Made by a program: the position numbers and the translations under genes. This document shows, in pieces, positions 3,101-12,791 of a DNA stretch of 12,791 bases. The stretch spans positions 1-12,791 of the forward strand of contig JAISTJ010000204.1 of the NCBI GenBank assembly GCA_031272655.1. Direction: 5' to 3'. Numbering within the stretch: position 1 is the first letter of the stretch; every line of letters begins with the position of its first letter. The notes below the pieces were generated by a model that saw only the letters and a program-made list of their open reading frames with translations, was not told the origin of the DNA and ran no database searches. This DNA is from Tannerella sp. Its GTDB lineage: Bacteria > Bacteroidota > Bacteroidia > Bacteroidales > Tannerellaceae.

Positions 3101-3655
3101 ATGGCACACAAAAAAGGAGTAGGTAGTTCTAAGAACGGTCGCGAATCAGAAAGCAAGCGACTTGGAGTGAAACTTTTTGGCGGCGAGTTCGCCAAAGCCG
3201 GAAACATAATAGTCCGTCAGCGTGGCACGCAGCATCATCCGGGCGAAAACGCGGGTATAGGCAAAGACCATACTATCTATGCGCTGATTGACGGTTTAGT
3301 AGTCTTCCGTAAGACGAAAAATAACCGCTCATACATATCCGTACAGAGGATTGGCGGCGATAAACCGGCGGAAATTATTGCACCGCAGCCTGTAACGGTT
3401 GCCAAAAAAGTAGTTGAAGCGCCCGTACCGGCTGAAGCGGCTGTGGTTGAAGCAGTTGCAGAGGCAGCGGTAGTTGAAGCGCCTGTAACAGAGGCAGTAG
3501 AAGAAGTCGCAGTAGCGGCTCCGAAACCGAAGCCTGCAGCAAAGCCCAGAGCTAAGAAAACTGCAGAAGCGCCTGCTACAGAGGCAGAAACAGAAACCAA
3601 ACCGAAGAAAACAACGGCTAAGCCGAAAACAAAAAAAGAAGAAAAAGAAGACTGA
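3101..3655 (+). CDS. rpmA: 50S ribosomal protein L27 with a long low-complexity C-terminal tail
   Basis: Residues 1-87 are a complete, canonical L27 (bL27): [16 protein letters not shown], then [24 protein letters not shown] and [15 protein letters not shown]27 sits by the peptidyl-transferase centre, where its N-terminus approaches the tRNA ends. There is no Firmicutes-style cleaved N-terminal extension. Family members are usually about 85-90 residues; this one has 184. The extra ~97 residues (88-184) have no hydrophobic core. Residues 104-138 are an Ala/Val/Glu-rich acidic part with repeated VVEAPV and EAVAEA units; residues 141-184 are a Lys/Pro/Ala-rich basic part ending in KKEEKED. At DNA level GTAGTTGAAGCGCC occurs twice exactly 60 bp apart (3410-3423, 3470-3483), in frame, which suggests growth by internal duplication. 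A terminator follows at 3685. Core assignment is certain; the tail's role is unknown. Confidence 0.96.
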
Positions 3656-4362: not shown

Positions 4363-5721
4363 ATGAAAAAAGGAAGCATCCTAATTGTTGATGATAACAG
4401 GAACGTACTGACGGCTTTACGCCTTTTACTGTCGAATTATTTTGAGACGGTAACGCTGTTGCCGTCGCCAAACGGCATTTATGATGCGTTGCGGGACTTA
4501 AAGCCCGATGTGGCGTTGCTTGACATGAATTTTTCGGCGGGCATCAACTCCGGCAATGAAGGTTTGTATTGGCTCTCGGAGATAAAAAAGCATGAGCCGG
4601 ACCTGCCGGTCGTCCTGTTCACCGCCTATGCAGATATAGATTTAGCAGTCAGCGCTTTAAAGCGCGGAGCAACTGATTTTGTGGTCAAGCCATGGGATAA
4701 TTCCAAGTTGGTTGCAACCCTGCAATCGGCTTATAATCTGCGGGAATCGCGAAAAGAAGTGAAGTTTTTGCGCGAGAAACAGTCTGTTTTGCACAGCGAA
4801 CTAAACCGCGAAACGGCGATCTGTTGGGGACAATCGGCAATAATGGACAGTTTGCGGCGAATGATAGAAAAAATTGCATCCACTGACGCCAACATACTGA
4901 TAACAGGCGAGAACGGCACAGGTAAAGAAGTGATAGCCAGAGAGATACACAGACTGTCATCACGCAACAACGAGGCTCTCATAACGGTTGATATGGGCGC
5001 AATAACCGAAACGCTGTTTGAAAGCGAGCTGTTCGGCTATGTCAAGGGCGCTTTCACCGACGCCAAAACCGACAGGGCGGGCAAATTTGAGGCGGCAAAC
5101 GGCGGCACGCTTTTTCTCGACGAAATAGGCAACCTGTCGTATCCGCTTCAAGCAAAGATGCTTAACGCGCTGCAATCGAGGCTGATAAGGCGCGTAGGAA
5201 GCAATACACCCATACCAGTCAATATCCGCCTGTTGTGCGCCACCAACCGCAATCTTCCCGAAATGGTCGCCAAAGGCGAGTTTCGTGAAGACCTGCTTTA
5301 CCGCATCAACACTATCCAGATTGAAATGCCGCCACTCCGCGAAAGGCGCGAAGACATCCCGCTGCTCGCCGACTTCTTTTTGCGCAAATACGCCGGCAAA
5401 TACAAGAAAAACGGCATCACTCTTTCCGCCGAAGCTGTCCGCAAGCTGCAAAATTACTCTTGGCACGGCAATATACGTGAGCTGCAGCACACACTCGAAA
5501 AGGCAGTGATTTTGTCAGATAGCGCTGTCCTTCAGGCAGATGAGATCCTGCTGAACAAGCGTTCGGACGAGATGCCTAAAATCATTACGCTTGAAGAAGC
5601 AGAAAAGCAACTGATAATCAAATCATTAAAACGACACAACAATAATCTTACAGCCACAGCCGATGAGCTTGGCACAACCAGGCAAACACTTTATAACAAA
5701 ATCAAAAAGTACAATTTTTGA
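4363..5721 (+). CDS. NtrC-family sigma-54-dependent response regulator
   Basis: A 452-residue three-domain transcription activator. The receiver domain (about 5-122) has the acidic pair Asp10/Asp11, phospho-acceptor Asp54 in ALLDMN, Thr87 and Lys109 in VVKPWD. The AAA+ domain (about 153-385) has Walker A GENGTGKE (182-189), the sigma-54 contact loop as GAFTDA (229-234) instead of GAFTGA, Walker B GGTLFLDEIGNL (247-258), arginine-finger region FREDLLYRIN (307-316) and sensor II WHGNIREL (367-374). A Fis-type helix-turn-helix closes the protein (about 412-452, ATADELGTTRQTLYNKIKKY). All parts needed for phosphorylation, ATP hydrolysis and DNA binding are present. Its likely kinase is the PAS/HisKA protein at 6955-8280 on the same strand, separated by one opposing gene. 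It converges with that gene with a 10-bp gap. Target genes are not evident; I saw no convincing sigma-54 -24/-12 promoter in the window. Confidence 0.95.
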   Translation: MKKGSILIVDDNRNVLTALRLLLSNYFETVTLLPSPNGIYDALRDLKPDVALLDMNFSAGINSGNEGLYWLSEIKKHEPDLPVVLFTAYADIDLAVSALKRGATDFVVKPWDNSKLVATLQSAYNLRESRKEVKFLREKQSVLHSELNRETAICWGQSAIMDSLRRMIEKIASTDANILITGENGTGKEVIAREIHRLSSRNNEALITVDMGAITETLFESELFGYVKGAFTDAKTDRAGKFEAANGGTLFLDEIGNLSYPLQAKMLNALQSRLIRRVGSNTPIPVNIRLLCATNRNLPEMVAKGEFREDLLYRINTIQIEMPPLRERREDIPLLADFFLRKYAGKYKKNGITLSAEAVRKLQNYSWHGNIRELQHTLEKAVILSDSAVLQADEILLNKRSDEMPKIITLEEAEKQLIIKSLKRHNNNLTATADELGTTRQTLYNKIKKYNF

Positions 5722-6940: not shown

Positions 6941-6948
6941 TAATTTTG
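6941..6948 (+). promoter_or_regulatory. -7 element of the histidine kinase gene
   Basis: TAATTTTG, preceded by seven A and TTG, matches TAnnTTTG. The ATG at 6955 follows after only 6 nt, so the transcript is predicted to be leaderless or to have a leader of a few nt. No -33 TTTG at standard spacing. Confidence 0.55.
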
Positions 6949-6954
6949 CAGAAT

Positions 6955-8280
6955 ATGTTCAAATCAATTCGGCATAAATTGATACTTTACACTGTCCTGC
7001 TCGTTGTTGCTGCTGCAGCGGGCGGGTGGTTTATTTTCGAGGGGTATTATATTTATACTCTGATAGTTATAGCTTTGATAATCTATTTCCTTTCGAAGCA
7101 ATTAAAGCATTTTGATACGTACAACAAGAAAATCATCTTCCTGCTCAATGCGCTTGAAAACGGCGATTACACATATAGGTTCTCGGACAAAAAGCTGACA
7201 ACCCGCGAGCGCGAAATGAACATGATGTTCAACAGGATAAAAGAAATTCTTGAGATGGCGCGCACGGAAGTTATTCAAAATGAGCAATTTCTGAGCATTA
7301 TACTCGAAAGCGTCTCAACCGGAATCATCATTGCCGACGAAAGGGGAATAGTCCATAAAGTGAATCGTACGGCTCTGGAAATGCTTGGTTTGGCGATACT
7401 TACGCACCTCAATCAACTGCAAAATATAGATGAGACTTTTCCGGATATTTTCATGGGTCTGCGTACCGGTGAAAGCCGCCAGTTGCCTCTTGCAAGCGAG
7501 AAGGAAGAAATCCTGATAAGCCTGCGCGTATCTGATATTAAGTTGAAACGCGGAATGATGCGGGTACTGACGCTTAACAACATTGGTAACGAACTGGAAA
7601 CCAAAGAGATGGAGTCATGGATACGTCTCATTCGCGTTATGACACACGAGATAATGAACTCCATTGCGCCGATCACCTCGCTTAGCGAAACGATGATGAG
7701 TTTGTATAAAAACGGCTCAAAACCCGCTCTTGAAGATACGCTGACTGCATTTGAAACAATCAACAGCACTGCTTCGGGCTTGCTTAGTTTTGTTGAGTCA
7801 TACCGCAAGTTCACATCCGTTCCTGCGCCGAAAAAAGAGCCGTTCAATATCTGCACGCTCGTAGAAAAGGTCGTTCAGCTGCACAAACAGGATGCGGCGG
7901 ACAAAGACATTGAGATTAGCGTAGAAACAACGCAGCCCGAAGATGAAGCCATCATGACTACTGCCGACGAAAACCAGATGCAGCAGGTTGTAATCAATCT
8001 GTTGAAAAACGCAATGGAAGTATCTGATTGTAAGCATATTATAATAAAAATCAATAACGAAGAAAAAGAAACGGCAATAGAAATATCAAACGATGGCGCA
8101 CATGTTCCGCCTGAAGTCTTACCGCATATTTTCGTGCCGTTTTTCACCACCAAGCCCAACGGTTCGGGCATAGGGTTGAGCCTGTCGCGTTACATCATGC
8201 GGCTACACGGCGGCAAACTGATTCATTATACCTCAAAAGACGGTCGGACTGTGTTCAGGATGGCATTAAGCAAGCAATGA
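6955..8280 (+). CDS. PAS-containing membrane sensor histidine kinase
   Basis: A 441-residue kinase. Two membrane helices (about 10-28 and 32-48) are joined by only a few residues, so there is no periplasmic sensor domain and sensing is probably cytoplasmic or intramembrane. A HAMP-like/coiled linker (50-110) leads to a PAS domain (~110-210, ILESVSTGIIIADERGIVHKVN). The HisKA part has phospho-acceptor His231 in RVMTHEIMNSIAPITSL. The ATP-binding domain has the N box with Asn352 (NLLKNAMEV), G1 Asp380 (ISNDGA), the F region FVPFFTTKPNGSG and G2 GSGIGLSLSRYI (403-414). This NtrB/NtrY-like layout commonly partners NtrC-type regulators, so the regulator at 4363-5721 is the likely target. ATG 6955 is preferred to the in-frame TTG 6946, which lies inside the -7 box. 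Its stop codon is 1 bp from that of the opposing DUF4296 gene. Confidence 0.94.
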   Translation: MFKSIRHKLILYTVLLVVAAAAGGWFIFEGYYIYTLIVIALIIYFLSKQLKHFDTYNKKIIFLLNALENGDYTYRFSDKKLTTREREMNMMFNRIKEILEMARTEVIQNEQFLSIILESVSTGIIIADERGIVHKVNRTALEMLGLAILTHLNQLQNIDETFPDIFMGLRTGESRQLPLASEKEEILISLRVSDIKLKRGMMRVLTLNNIGNELETKEMESWIRLIRVMTHEIMNSIAPITSLSETMMSLYKNGSKPALEDTLTAFETINSTASGLLSFVESYRKFTSVPAPKKEPFNICTLVEKVVQLHKQDAADKDIEISVETTQPEDEAIMTTADENQMQQVVINLLKNAMEVSDCKHIIIKINNEEKETAIEISNDGAHVPPEVLPHIFVPFFTTKPNGSGIGLSLSRYIMRLHGGKLIHYTSKDGRTVFRMALSKQ

Positions 8281-9098: not shown

Positions 9099-9749
9099 CT
9101 AAGAGTTTTTCTCTTTTGCGAAGCTTGCCGAAAGCGATTGGCGATAGAAGATAAGCAGTGTGAAAACGCTCACGCAGATTGACGAGTCTGCGACATTGAA
9201 TATCGGACGGAAAAAGACAAACTCGTGTCCGCCCATAAACGGAACCCACGTGGGCAAAACTGTCTTTATAAGCGGGAAGTAGAGCATATCAACAACCCTG
9301 CCGTGAAACCACGTGGAATAGCCGCCGCCTTCGGGCATAAAAGTCGCCACATGCCCGTAACTATTGTCGAACAGCGCACCGTAGCACACGCAATCAATAA
9401 TATTGCCGAGTGCACCGGCAAGTATGAACGACAAGCAAATGATAAAACCAAACTTAAAATCGCGCCGTATGAGCTTGAAAATAAACCACCCCAGCGCACT
9501 GACTACAATTATTCTGAAAATCGTAAGTATGTATGTATCAAACAGTTCTATACCGAAAGCCATACCCGGGTTTTCGGTGAAATAGATTTTGAACCATGAA
9601 AAGATTTCTATGCTGTCATAGAGGCGCATATTAGTCTTGACCAGCACTTTCGAGGTCTGGTCAAATATCAGTAGCAGCAATACACAGCATGTCGCTATGA
9701 GTATCCGTTTACGCTGTAATTTACTTAACTCCACTTTCTTTAGCTTCAA
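9099..9749 (-). CDS. lspA: Lipoprotein signal peptidase (signal peptidase II)
   Basis: LspA is the inner-membrane aspartyl protease that cleaves prolipoproteins before the lipidated cysteine. Signatures seen: DQTSK (30-34), FTENPGMAFG (57-66), LAGALGNIID (110-119), catalytic Asp154 in GRVVDMLYF and catalytic Asp188 in FNVADSSI. Four membrane helices fit (about 16-33, 72-93, 99-119, 187-203). At 216 residues it exceeds E. coli LspA (164); the extra length is mostly in two segments, one between GNIID and GRVVD and one between the two catalytic Asp. The start is unusual. No ATG is available: an in-frame TGA lies two codons upstream of TTG 9749, so the start is TTG 9749 or GTG 9734, both inside the 3' end of the DksA-like gene. 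This suggests translational coupling. The DUF4296 lipoprotein gene follows closely. Confidence 0.94.
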   Translation of the reverse strand: MKLKKVELSKLQRKRILIATCCVLLLLIFDQTSKVLVKTNMRLYDSIEIFSWFKIYFTENPGMAFGIELFDTYILTIFRIIVVSALGWFIFKLIRRDFKFGFIICLSFILAGALGNIIDCVCYGALFDNSYGHVATFMPEGGGYSTWFHGRVVDMLYFPLIKTVLPTWVPFMGGHEFVFFRPIFNVADSSICVSVFTLLIFYRQSLSASFAKEKNS

Positions 9750-10101
9750 TGCTCAATGTTGCGTGGGGTACAGCGCGGAGGCGCTCCTTAGGTATCAGCT
9801 TGCCTGTTTCGCGACAAATACCGTAAGTCTTGTTCTCAATGCGAACAAGCGCTGCTTGAAGGTTCTGGATAAATTTCATCTGACGCTGCGCCAACCGTCC
9901 CGATTCCTCTTTGGACAGCGTTGTAGCGCCTTCTTCAAGCACCTTGAACGTAGGCGACGTGTCCGAAACGTCATTACCTTCATAGTTAGTAACTCCGTCG
10001 CGCAACTGCTCATAGTCGCGCTTCGCCTTGTCGAGTTTTTCAAGAATTATTGCCTTAAATTCTTCCAATTCCTCGTCTGTGTATCTTGTTTTTTCAGCCA
10101 T
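9721..10101 (-). CDS. TraR/DksA-family RNA polymerase regulator lacking the four-Cys zinc site
   Basis: A 126-residue DksA-like protein. The N-terminal half (about 8-90) is a predicted coiled coil with an acidic turn NDVSDTS (43-49) in the place of the DksA coiled-coil tip DxxDxA, which reaches into the RNA polymerase secondary channel. The C-terminal block YGICRETGKLIPKERLRAVPHATL (93-116) is the DksA zinc-finger homology region, but only Cys96 of the four zinc ligands remains; the others are replaced by Thr, Val and Ala/Thr. A zinc-independent fold is therefore expected. The family modulates transcription initiation, often with ppGpp; that role is inferred here. It is the first gene of a three-gene unit with lspA (overlap of 14-29 bp) and the DUF4296 lipoprotein. 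ATG 10101 is well placed; the predicted promoter lies 90 bp upstream. Confidence 0.9.
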   Translation of the reverse strand: MAEKTRYTDEELEEFKAIILEKLDKAKRDYEQLRDGVTNYEGNDVSDTSPTFKVLEEGATTLSKEESGRLAQRQMKFIQNLQAALVRIENKTYGICRETGKLIPKERLRAVPHATLSIEAKESGVK

Positions 10102-10281
10102 AAGACTATTGTTTTTGAATTACATTACTGTTTTGCATTAATGCGGGTTTGGCGAAAATTCTTTCCACTTCACGACCCGCTTTGGCGCCGCAAAGGTAAT
10201 AATAATTTTACAAAGTTGTAGCATTTAGCTATTAAACTTTTCAACAATTAGGAAATATTAGGATTTCTCTACGCAAATATT
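10102..10281. other. Intergenic region between the DksA-like operon and the HU-LysM gene
   Basis: No gene here. Features by eye: the operon promoter near 10191; an inverted repeat CTTTG-GCGCCG-CAAAG (10180-10195) that overlaps that -7 box; GCGGGT (10143-10148) complementary to ACCCGC (10175-10180), which could form a leader hairpin; and two copies of ATTAGGA 10 bp apart (10247-10253, 10257-10263). No terminator for the HU-LysM gene is obvious. Confidence 0.4.
10191..10198 (-). promoter_or_regulatory. -7 element of the dksA-like/lspA/DUF4296 operon
   Basis: TACCTTTG on the minus strand matches TAnnTTTG. No TTTG at 19 nt; one occurs 12 nt upstream. The predicted leader is about 85 nt, much longer than for most units here, and starts in a GC-rich stretch with inverted repeats. 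Confidence 0.55.
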
Positions 10282-11784
10282 CTATCTCTGCTGTTTCATC
10301 AGTTCGCGCTGTCTCTGAAGCGCTTTGTCGAGCGAGAGCTTGTTTTTTGCGTCTATGCTGTAAACGTTCGGGCGCGGCAGCTTTATCTCCGTTCCTACGG
10401 GGATGTTGTCGAAATTCTTGATTTTATCTTTGTTATATTCATAGATATAAACCCAGAAGATCTTGTCTCCGTAGTATTGAAGGGCGATCTGAGTAAGGCT
10501 CATGCCTGCCGTCATGACTACCCGTGACGGGATGTTCGTCTGCGTGGCGGTTGTTGATGCCTGTTTGGAATCTGTGCTACGGTTCGTTGTGTTGCTGTTC
10601 TGACGCGGACGGTTTGCACTTGCACGCCTTGTAGTCTGCTGCGGCGTCTGCCCCGACGAGGGCGCAAGCCAGTCTATAGACGATTTCTTTTCCTCTTCCG
10701 ACAATCTCGAAACGCTGTCTTCCGCAATCACTCTGTTAATGTCTGTCTCTGAGGGATTTACGTCGGAATGTCTTGCAAATTCCGTGCTGTCCACTGCTAT
10801 ACCTATCTCTTCAAATTCACCGCCTTCCGCAGATCCTTCTTCCGATGGCATTGAAAACTGCGAGGTGAACTCCGTAGCAGGTTCTTTTTCTGTACCATTA
10901 TCCGTATGAATCTTCAGGAAAGCATACGCGCCTATACCGGCTCCTGCCATGATAAACAGCGGAATAGCCACAAAATATACCCACACGGGTATAGTTTTCT
11001 TCTTTTTTCTCATTCTGTGTCTGTGATAACCCGATCTATACTTATTGACTTCCTCCTTATCCTCTTCGTCCTCGGGTTCAAGTTCTAATTCCTGTTCGAG
11101 GTCCAATTCCGATTCTTCAGGACGGGATTTGTTTGTCGTATTGTTTTCTTCAGCCTGAATTAACTGCGTACTTTCATCTTCGGGGACTACAAACACCGGA
11201 GTTTCAGGCTGTTGCTGCTGTTGCTGTTCGGGATATTTGTTATTGAAGTTTTCTTTTTCTTCCAAATTATCCGGCTCGTTTTCTTCCGGTTCACCTGCGC
11301 CGTTTTCCTCGATGGATGCGTTACTTAAAGCTTTTTCCCTACTTACAACTTCCTCATTTTCAGATACTTCCTCTTCTTCCTGCGGAAGAGCTTCATCTTC
11401 AAGTTTATAATTACCGATAGCAAAGTTTTCCGTATCAAACGAATACCTGCCGGGCTGGATATCATCCGTCGTTTCAACGGTTTCAAAGAAGGCGAACGGG
11501 CGATTTATATGATCTTTAAACGATTTGTCGGGGATAAACGAAATCTTGTGGTGGGCGGGTATCACTATCCGCTCGCCGGTCTGAACATGAACGCTTTCGC
11601 GCTCGCGGACAAGCACTACCTTGAATACTCCAAGCCCCAAAACCTTCACCACACCGTTCTTTTCAATGCCTTTCTTAATGAATTCGGCAAGGGTGTCAAT
11701 GAATTTTTCGGCTTTCAACTTGTTCAAACTGGTGTGTTCAACCAGAATGTCCGATAATGCTCTTATGTTAGTACGTTCATTCAT
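10282..11784 (-). CDS. HU-type DNA-binding domain / acidic linker / membrane helix / LysM protein
   Basis: A 500-residue modular protein. Residues 1-95 form an HU/IHF-like domain (helices 8-40; beta-arm VVKVLGLGVFKVVLVRERESVHVQTGERIVIP), but the Asn-Pro of the usual arm tip (NPQTG) is His-Val (66-67). Residues 128-247 are a strongly acidic Glu-rich linker with a six-Gln run (187-192). A basic cluster RHRMRKKKK (255-263) precedes one hydrophobic helix (265-290), so by the positive-inside rule the N-terminus is cytoplasmic and the C-terminus outside. A Ser/Thr/Gln-rich spacer follows (300-420), then a LysM-like domain (~419-470: MTAGMSLTQIALQYYGDKIFWVYIYEYN ending IPVGTEIKLP), normally a glycan or peptidoglycan binder. 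Start ATG 11784 overlaps the stop of the small HU gene by ATGA. If topology is right, the protein could tether DNA to the cell wall; that is inference. Confidence 0.88.
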   Translation of the reverse strand: MNERTNIRALSDILVEHTSLNKLKAEKFIDTLAEFIKKGIEKNGVVKVLGLGVFKVVLVRERESVHVQTGERIVIPAHHKISFIPDKSFKDHINRPFAFFETVETTDDIQPGRYSFDTENFAIGNYKLEDEALPQEEEEVSENEEVVSREKALSNASIEENGAGEPEENEPDNLEEKENFNNKYPEQQQQQQPETPVFVVPEDESTQLIQAEENNTTNKSRPEESELDLEQELELEPEDEEDKEEVNKYRSGYHRHRMRKKKKTIPVWVYFVAIPLFIMAGAGIGAYAFLKIHTDNGTEKEPATEFTSQFSMPSEEGSAEGGEFEEIGIAVDSTEFARHSDVNPSETDINRVIAEDSVSRLSEEEKKSSIDWLAPSSGQTPQQTTRRASANRPRQNSNTTNRSTDSKQASTTATQTNIPSRVVMTAGMSLTQIALQYYGDKIFWVYIYEYNKDKIKNFDNIPVGTEIKLPRPNVYSIDAKNKLSLDKALQRQRELMKQQR

Positions 11785-12068
11785 TTTTCATCTAATTTTT
11801 TTAAGATAGTCTTCCAGAATGGCGCGGGTTTAAAAACAGGCGTCAGCTTTGGAGGGATCAAATACCTCTTACCGTTTGTCGGATTGGCGGATATACGCTC
11901 GGCTTTCTTTTTGGCTTCAAACTGTCCCACCCCGCTGACCGTAACCGTTCCACCATTGGAAATAGCATCCCCCATCAACAAATATAATGTTGACAGTATG
12001 TTAACTACCTCATTAGGAGGCATATCCATCTGTTCGGATAATGCGGTAACCAGTTCGACATCTTTCAT
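11781..12068 (-). CDS. HU/IHF-family DNA-binding protein
   Basis: A 95-residue nucleoid-type protein of normal HU length. Helical dimerization part at 1-38, then GGTVTVSGVGQFEAKKKAERISANPTNGKRYLIPPKLTPVFKP (39-81). This matches the HU pattern of a GxGxF turn and a beta-arm with the tip ANPTNG holding the Pro that inserts into bent DNA. HU proteins act as homo- or heterodimers. The next gene starts within its stop codon (ATGA) and carries a divergent HU domain, so a heterodimer between the two products is plausible. It lies 141 bp after rimO and has its own -7 box at 12138-12145; it may also be reached by rimO transcription since no clear terminator is seen between them. Confidence 0.92.
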   Translation of the reverse strand: MKDVELVTALSEQMDMPPNEVVNILSTLYLLMGDAISNGGTVTVSGVGQFEAKKKAERISANPTNGKRYLIPPKLTPVFKPAPFWKTILKKLDEK

Positions 12069-12137
12069 ATTTCAATATTCAATTATTATTCTCTTATGAG
12101 TATGATTAGTTAGAACATTTGCTTCGTTATTTCGGTA

Positions 12138-12145
12138 CAAAAGTA
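12138..12145 (-). promoter_or_regulatory. -7 element of the HU / HU-LysM operon
   Basis: TACTTTTG on the minus strand matches TAnnTTTG, preceded by an A-rich spacer; the -33 position reads TTTT. The leader to ATG 12068 is about 65-70 nt. The stretch 12146-12209 is almost pure A/T and holds no gene or GC-rich terminator. Confidence 0.55.
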
Positions 12146-12209
12146 TTATCTTTTTTCGAAATAAAAAAATATTTTGCAACTTTTTTTTCAAAAAAAATTT
12201 TTCTTTTGG

Positions 12210-12791
12210 TCATTTTTTTGCCGGCTCACCGTATAATTCAAACGCTTCTGCCCTGTTAATCAGTATGTTATAAAATTCTCCCTGTTTAAGATTTTTTTTG
12301 CCGCCGATAATTATTTCCGGATCAATTTCGGGCGAATCGTACTCCGTTCTGCCGATAAAATATTCGCCTTCGCGCCGGTCAATAATTGTTTTCAGTATCT
12401 TGCCCACCTTTTGTTCGTTCACCTCCTCCGCTATCGCCTGTTGGATGTTCATCAGCCGGTCTAATCGCTGCTGCTTGACTTCGTCGGGAATGTTATCTTC
12501 GTGATTTTCAAACGAATACGTACCATGTTCATGGCTGTAGGCGAAAGCGCCCATACGCTCGAATCGAGCTTCCTTGACAAAGTCGCACAGTTCGGCGAAA
12601 TCGTCGTCTGTTTCATCGGGATGCCCCACCATAAATGTTGTACGAATGTGAATATCAGGCACTTCGTCGCGAATTCGGGCAAGCAGTTCGCGGGTCTGAT
12701 TAGACGTGATGTCGCGTCGCATCATTTTAAGGATGTGGTCGCTGATATGCTGAAGGGCTATATCCAAGTAGTTGCAGACGTTTTCGCGCTC
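12210..12791 (-). CDS. rimO: Ribosomal protein S12 methylthiotransferase RimO, C-terminal part
   Basis: The final 193 codons of RimO; the start lies beyond the right edge. RimO is a radical-SAM iron-sulfur enzyme that adds a methylthio group to the conserved Asp of ribosomal protein S12. The fragment covers the end of the radical-SAM barrel: YLDIALQHISDHILKMMRR, RTTFMVGHPDETDDDF (residues 50-65 of the fragment) and FAYSHEHGT (83-91). It then enters the C-terminal TRAM domain (about 128-188) with GRTEYDSPEID (147-157), which distinguishes RimO from the related tRNA enzyme MiaB. The cluster-binding cysteines of the N-terminal half are outside the window. An in-frame TTG at 12767 is internal, not a start, as the conserved sequence continues to the edge. 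The two HU genes lie downstream on the same strand. Confidence 0.95.
   Translation of the reverse strand, partial: ERENVCNYLDIALQHISDHILKMMRRDITSNQTRELLARIRDEVPDIHIRTTFMVGHPDETDDDFAELCDFVKEARFERMGAFAYSHEHGTYSFENHEDNIPDEVKQQRLDRLMNIQQAIAEEVNEQKVGKILKTIIDRREGEYFIGRTEYDSPEIDPEIIIGGKKNLKQGEFYNILINRAEAFELYGEPAKK

Follow-up and report, generated by a model that had tools for sequence, protein, structure and literature searches.

A two-gene HU and LysM module in Bacteroidota that may tie nucleoid DNA to the cell wall

In a 12,791-nucleotide stretch of DNA from Tannerella sp. (the window), two overlapping genes on the minus strand encode a small HU protein and a membrane protein with an HU domain at one end and a LysM domain at the other. 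Our tentative reading, which we place just short of an even chance, is that they represent a two-gene Bacteroidota module whose HU dimer would tie nucleoid DNA to the cell wall across the inner membrane. The initial annotation described the larger gene at the right coordinates (10282–11784); its strand has to be given as minus, since frame 1 of the plus strand contains several stops. Absent from that annotation were the overlapping HU gene at 11781–12068 and the C-terminal helix at residues 482–499. The features are listed below by coordinates and strand, with the evidence in brackets.

11781..12068, minus: partner HU protein, 95 aa, with the wedge proline and a basic arm (PF00216 E 4.2e-18, alignment)
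11781..11784, minus: ATGA overlap of 4 bases between the partner stop and the HU-LysM start (sequence)
10282..11784, minus: protein of 500 aa with the order HU, acidic linker, membrane helix, linker, LysM (ORF, profiles, AlphaFold2)
11494..11784, minus: HU domain, residues 1–97, with V replacing the wedge proline of the arm (PF00216, pLDDT, Foldseek, alignment)
11005..11493, minus: acidic disordered linker, predicted to be cytoplasmic, residues about 98–260 (pLDDT mostly below 50, net charge)
10993..11037, minus: basic cluster preceding the membrane helix, residues about 250–264 (8 K/R in 15 residues)
10903..10986, minus: single predicted membrane helix, residues 267–294 (hydropathy 1.99; pLDDT about 93 in mid-helix)
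10531..10902, minus: second disordered linker, predicted to lie beyond the membrane, residues 295–418 (pLDDT mostly below 50)
10372..10530, minus: LysM domain, residues 419–471 (family profile against PDB, fragment model, Foldseek)
10288..10341, minus: C-terminal helix past LysM, residues 482–499 (AlphaFold2 models)

The AlphaFold2 model of the whole membrane-anchored protein, computed from 38 aligned sequences, has a mean pLDDT of 65.3 and a pTM of 0.30, with 244 of the 500 residues below 50. Its three confident parts are the HU domain, the helix at 267–294, and the LysM fold (421 to about 471) followed by the helix at 482–499 (about 95). PF00216 matches residues 10–94 of this protein (E 1.7e-17), pLDDT is about 95 across residues 11–90, and Foldseek places the same part among solved HU/IHF structures (best E 1.2e-7). 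The N-terminal HU-like domain of the initial annotation is thereby confirmed, with the HU fold as a well-supported prediction. An HU of the mobile-element (HU-HIG) type was rejected for the window protein on the strength of its PF00216 match; PF18291, of the HU-HIG type, is matched by two other loci of the same genome. At the nucleotide level, an inverted repeat of 7 pairs lies inside the HU-LysM gene at 10976–10993, about where the codons of the membrane helix begin. Terminator-like sites in 9600–12791 number 10, against 4.7 (sd 2.3) expected by shuffling. The promoter scan found 0 against 4.2 expected by shuffling, such a scan being uninformative for Bacteroidota.

Comparisons across the family were based on 68 members: 41 sequences of a first set, mostly from the order, and 27 of family f131. 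Two OmpA-LysM proteins without HU (L013 and L019) were excluded from these 68 and from alignment A2, L026 was excluded from alignments A1 and A2 and L030 from A2, and L087 was added to the 68 as the second fused protein. For 64 of the 68 members, the corresponding neighbouring position on that strand holds an HU gene, at a spacing of -23 to +14 bases. The other four are L014, where the start seems to have been misread and an HU gene overlaps; L024, which has an HU neighbour by tblastn; and L030 and L087, which are HU-HU fusions. Twenty loci were retrieved from g82, a genus of family f80: 19 encode the fused arrangement (HU-HU-helix-LysM), and the remaining one has a 266-aa frame. Families f54 (L127) and f27 (L122) contribute one fused protein apiece. 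Scored against the partner profile, the second HU of the g82 proteins gives uneven values (i-E 2.2e-6 to 0.3), and in several of them its assignment therefore relies on position and pattern. The comparison establishes the gene pairing and the fusions as such; their tightness and repetition suggest that the partner HU and the anchored HU most likely form one dimer. In a second set within one genome (L124, 309–1956), an HU-like protein of 84 aa, an HU-membrane-LysM protein of 296 aa and a small membrane-LysM protein of 152 aa are encoded in a row.

The linker that follows the anchored HU (residues about 98–260, mostly at pLDDT below 50) carries a net charge of -40 over residues 96–246, in line with the acidic linker noted initially. 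In 67 of the 68 members the linker preceding the helix has a net negative charge, and no column within it is conserved in the family alignment. Its acidity fits a DNA-repelling membrane spacer and self-inhibition of the HU domain alike, and these observations speak neither for nor against the initial suggestion that the linker mimics DNA. A hydropathy scan of the whole window protein finds one stretch only, at 267–285, flanked by 8 K/R in the 15 residues before it and 2 in the 15 after. When the 68 members were scanned from residue 101 to about 80 residues from the end, a hydrophobic stretch above the threshold was found in 67 (L027 peaks at 1.53) and a second one in none; whole-length scans gave at most one stretch per protein in 42 and in 29 proteins. 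Of the 68 members, 55 have more K/R N-terminal to the helix than C-terminal to it, 7 have fewer and 6 have equal numbers, these rows being related and not independent. The single stretch and the K/R bias make an HU domain inside and a LysM domain outside the likely arrangement, and both the one helix and the N-in topology are predictions with good support. The opposite placement, HU outside and LysM inside, was rejected on the sole stretch at 267–285 and the N-in charge bias. The basic cluster and single helix proposed in the initial annotation thus stand, as does its placing of HU and LysM on opposite sides of the membrane, as a predicted topology.

Pfam LysM (PF01476) has no match on the window protein at E ≤ 1 and matches 3 of the 41 aligned members at E ≤ 0.01. 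NCBIfam models match weakly, far below their curated cut-offs: Rpf at 353–471 (E 1.6e-4) and a LysM protein at 411–471 (E 2.8e-4). A profile of 36 relatives searched against PDB chains recovers Kbp (E 3.3e-9) and Ecp6 (E 1e-8). Alignment A3 comprises 36 of the 42 ORFs, L013 included, and omits L003, L016 and L036 (without the cutting motif) and the near copies L007, L019 and L040. An 82-residue fragment containing the domain was modelled with a mean pLDDT of 93.5, and Foldseek places it near Kbp, baseplate proteins, some of which carry a LysM label, and LysM domains. The best E value is 2.9e-3, with no match at E ≤ 0.001, and the first neighbour superposes with an rmsd of 1.1 Å over 51 columns. 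The matches further include LysM structures containing GlcNAc oligomers (4b8v, E 0.18; 7r1l, E 0.96). The nearest solved LysM is that of Kbp (YgaU), a potassium-binding protein. The relatives' profile search and the confidently folded fragment led us to reject a chance resemblance, and the LysM-like domain of the initial annotation is upheld as a predicted LysM fold with good support. In the family alignment, the majority pattern YGIDA....S..KA extends into the C-terminal helix.

The same LysM cassette terminates three proteins with an OmpA-family domain, recognised by PF00691 in L013 (E 4.5e-12), L019 (E 3.6e-12) and L121 (E 7.2e-14); the OmpA barrel model exceeds its cut-off in L121 only. 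Since L013 and L019 are 97% identical, the OmpA-LysM arrangement amounts to two independent cases. OmpA-family domains work in the periplasm.

The HU-LysM layout is not confined to the window but recurs in the order and in another class of the phylum. Of the 198 genomes sampled from the order, 35 match the family profile (E ≤ 1e-22), and 34 of these read as HU and LysM in one frame: 30 among L015–L044 or L128 (G193), together with L087 (G165), L125 (G021), L126 (G125; weak HU match, E 4.5e-4) and L122 (G129). The 35th genome (G130) has a profile match at the HU end only. The class sample gave matches in 8 of 247 genomes, all 8 in the order. In the phylum sample, 197 of 296 genomes match at E ≤ 1e-12. 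Of these, 33 reach E ≤ 1e-26, namely 3 from the order and 30 from family f131, which belongs to another class. Best E values are 3e-20 or weaker for the remaining 164, which are read as mainly ordinary HU genes. From f131, 27 of the 30 genomes were fetched as best hits, and each of the 27 combines HU with a single hydrophobic stretch and a match to the LysM profile. The 12 named loci come from 11 Tannerella-labelled MAGs and one unplaced Bacteroidota MAG (L013).

The neighbouring genes vary and give no single functional hint. In 20 of 40 loci the upstream flank contains a rimO-like stretch, many of the flanks being just 1.5 kb. L082 has an FtsY-type gene upstream and MoxR-type and BatD-like genes downstream, the BatD-like match being just under the Pfam cut-off; by eye, N-termini similar to the L082 neighbours occur in other Bacteroidales loci. 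The f131 loci have other neighbouring genes. Elsewhere in the window, 3101–3655 on the plus strand encodes a 184-aa protein, presumably a bL27-like ribosomal protein, whose C-terminal extension of roughly 100 residues is rich in A, P, E and K. The plus-strand genes at 4363–5721 and 6946–8280, which we take to encode an NtrC-type response regulator and a histidine kinase, flank an opposite-strand gene, presumably for a thioredoxin-like protein.

In the window the contrast between the two HU chains is moderate: the partner arm has 7 K/R, a net charge of +5 and P at the wedge position, with +3 for the whole domain, whereas the anchored arm has 5 K/R, a net charge of +2 and V at the wedge position, with +4 for the whole domain. 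In the first set, 35 of 37 partners have the wedge proline, as against 3 of 41 anchored rows, one of the three being the first HU of a fused protein; the 41 rows include two fused proteins, aligned by their first HU, and L014, with its doubtful start. Partners of this set have on average 6.6 K/R in the arm and a domain charge of +6.0, against 4.5 and -0.2 for the anchored domains. L031 and L035 have a shortened anchored arm, and L125 and L126 lack it. In f131, all 27 partners and all 27 anchored chains have the wedge proline, which means that the division of labour is not general; mean arm K/R is 6.0 for partners and 4.3 for anchored chains, and mean domain charge +0.4 (about neutral) and -1.0. 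The two HU domains of the 19 fused g82 proteins have mean net charges of -2.8 and -3.5, which argues against DNA binding in that genus. From these comparisons of wedge proline, arm and charge, the anchored HU looks like a weaker DNA binder in the order and seems to be kept mainly for pairing. DNA binding by the HU pair appears likely in the lineage of the window, possible in f131 and doubtful in g82.

The proposal that one polypeptide links DNA to peptidoglycan holds in part: the architecture and predicted topology agree with it, but it is too simple, since DNA is probably bound by a dimer that includes the neighbouring HU protein, with the anchored HU as the apparently weaker binder in the order. 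From the parts described above we infer a heterodimer, binding of DNA and of peptidoglycan, and a biological role in tethering, along the following lines. The small HU would pair in the cytoplasm with the membrane protein's HU domain, giving one HU-type dimer, the anchored chain serving mainly to dimerise and anchor and the small partner providing more of the DNA grip. The long acidic spacer would keep this dimer away from the membrane, one helix would span the inner membrane with the N terminus inside and the C terminus outside, and the second flexible spacer would allow LysM to hold peptidoglycan. Tying nucleoid DNA to the cell wall in this way could position or segregate the chromosome. Nucleoid-to-wall tethering by the HU-LysM pair is plausible. 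A simple DNA tether is weakened by the usual absence of the wedge proline from the anchored chain in the order, the lack of the arm in some relatives and the on average net negative HU domains of g82; it is weakened too by the closest solved LysM domains, which belong to Kbp and baseplates and need not bind peptidoglycan.

The same observations bear on the main rival, in which the HU pair is a protein-binding adaptor under the membrane: LysM would sit on the wall while the HU dimer recruits a cytoplasmic protein instead of DNA. Comparable cases are the HTH domain of RodZ, which binds MreB and not DNA, and the eukaryotic CCDC81, whose HU domains work at the centrosome. An adaptor would fit the retention of the HU body and LysM while arms degenerate in some members, the on average net negative charge of both HU domains in the fused genus, and the alignment of the tandem HU of the SPOR relative to the fused HU-HU. 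However, most partners keep the wedge proline (35/37 and 27/27) and a basic arm, which is hard to explain without DNA, and we judge this reading rather unlikely.

Two further possibilities shift the emphasis to the LysM end. By analogy with membrane regulators of comparable type such as ToxR and CadC, LysM might sense the state of peptidoglycan and alter how HU contacts DNA close to the membrane, thereby affecting transcription. A single helix between an inner domain of DNA-binding type and an outer domain of ligand type would suit such a wall-responsive regulator, but HU lacks sequence specificity, the long disordered linkers flanking the membrane would pass signals poorly and the neighbouring genes vary, all of which makes it improbable. 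We would expect still less that LysM binds a target other than peptidoglycan, such as an ion or an outer-membrane protein, and that the membrane HU protein has another envelope partner. That the closest solved LysM is in Kbp and others are in baseplate proteins speaks for this; against it, the same cassette follows an OmpA-family domain in the OmpA-like proteins, and GlcNAc-oligomer LysM structures were matched as well (4b8v at E 0.18, 7r1l at E 0.96). This small conserved two-gene module, with parts that reach from an HU pair to a wall-type domain, offers a direct test of whether a physical tie joins a bacterial nucleoid to the cell wall. To our knowledge, how chromosomes are placed and separated in Bacteroidota is poorly known. 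A split between a gripping and an anchoring HU would, if true, be an unusual specialisation of HU heterodimers.

Burroughs and colleagues are said to have predicted in 2017, in work on the HU superfamily and CCDC81, a chromosome partition role for the CCDC81-type HU proteins of Bacteroidetes. Our searches of the open-licence literature listed no paper on the LysM version of the HU membrane protein. None of the LysM or HU proteins mentioned in passages from three articles (PMC11885536, PMC10434189, PMC13114119) could be tied to the window protein. Another article (PMC3969353) reports that no mutant of the Porphyromonas gingivalis HU PG1258 could be obtained; no correspondence between PG1258 and the partner HU could be established.

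Compared with known systems, both chains share the HU domain of the HU/IHF family (PF00216), and the anchored chain its fold, but that chain differs by the linker, the membrane helix, LysM and an altered arm. The LysM part corresponds in profile and fold to the C-terminal LysM of Kbp, from which it differs by the added YGIDA....S..KA segment, the C-terminal helix and a predicted place outside the inner membrane. Closest in layout are the proteins with HU-CCDC81_bac_1 and bac_2 domains, a helix and SPOR (PF18174, PF18175, PF05036), which likewise combine two HU domains, a linker, one membrane helix and a C-terminal end of the wall-binding type. As the initial annotation noted, HU and SPOR relatives occur in Bacteroidota: L051, from the same genome as the window, has HU-CCDC81 1 and 2 and SPOR with one hydrophobic stretch between. 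Among the seven SPOR-type proteins read, both HU models match in all, SPOR in six (not L047), and six have a stretch above 1.6 (not L049).

The window differs from these proteins in having LysM in the place of SPOR, for which there is no profile match on the window protein, in its HU pair, which is usually spread over two genes, and in HU domains that match PF00216 and not PF18174. Membership in PF18174 was rejected, as neither the window protein nor its partner matches that model at E ≤ 1. PF18174, which counts the HU model and not SPOR, matches 179 of the 198 genomes of the order, including 30 of the 35 with the LysM type; in f131 it has 1 match in 39, below the cut-off. The window carries its two HU domains on two genes, and one-chain versions are found in the fused relatives. 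An hhalign comparison matches the fused HU-HU of the LysM proteins to the tandem HU of the SPOR type (E 3.3e-6, probability 87.8, 119 columns, 13% identity), and we accordingly regard the LysM module as a variant of these tandem-HU membrane proteins, its HU pair being usually divided between two genes. It is possible, if somewhat short of probable, that Bacteroidota possess two parallel systems leading from an HU dimer to peptidoglycan, one through SPOR and one through LysM, and that the LysM system is the modular one, combining a soluble gripping HU with a dedicated anchoring HU in a direct nucleoid-to-wall tether.
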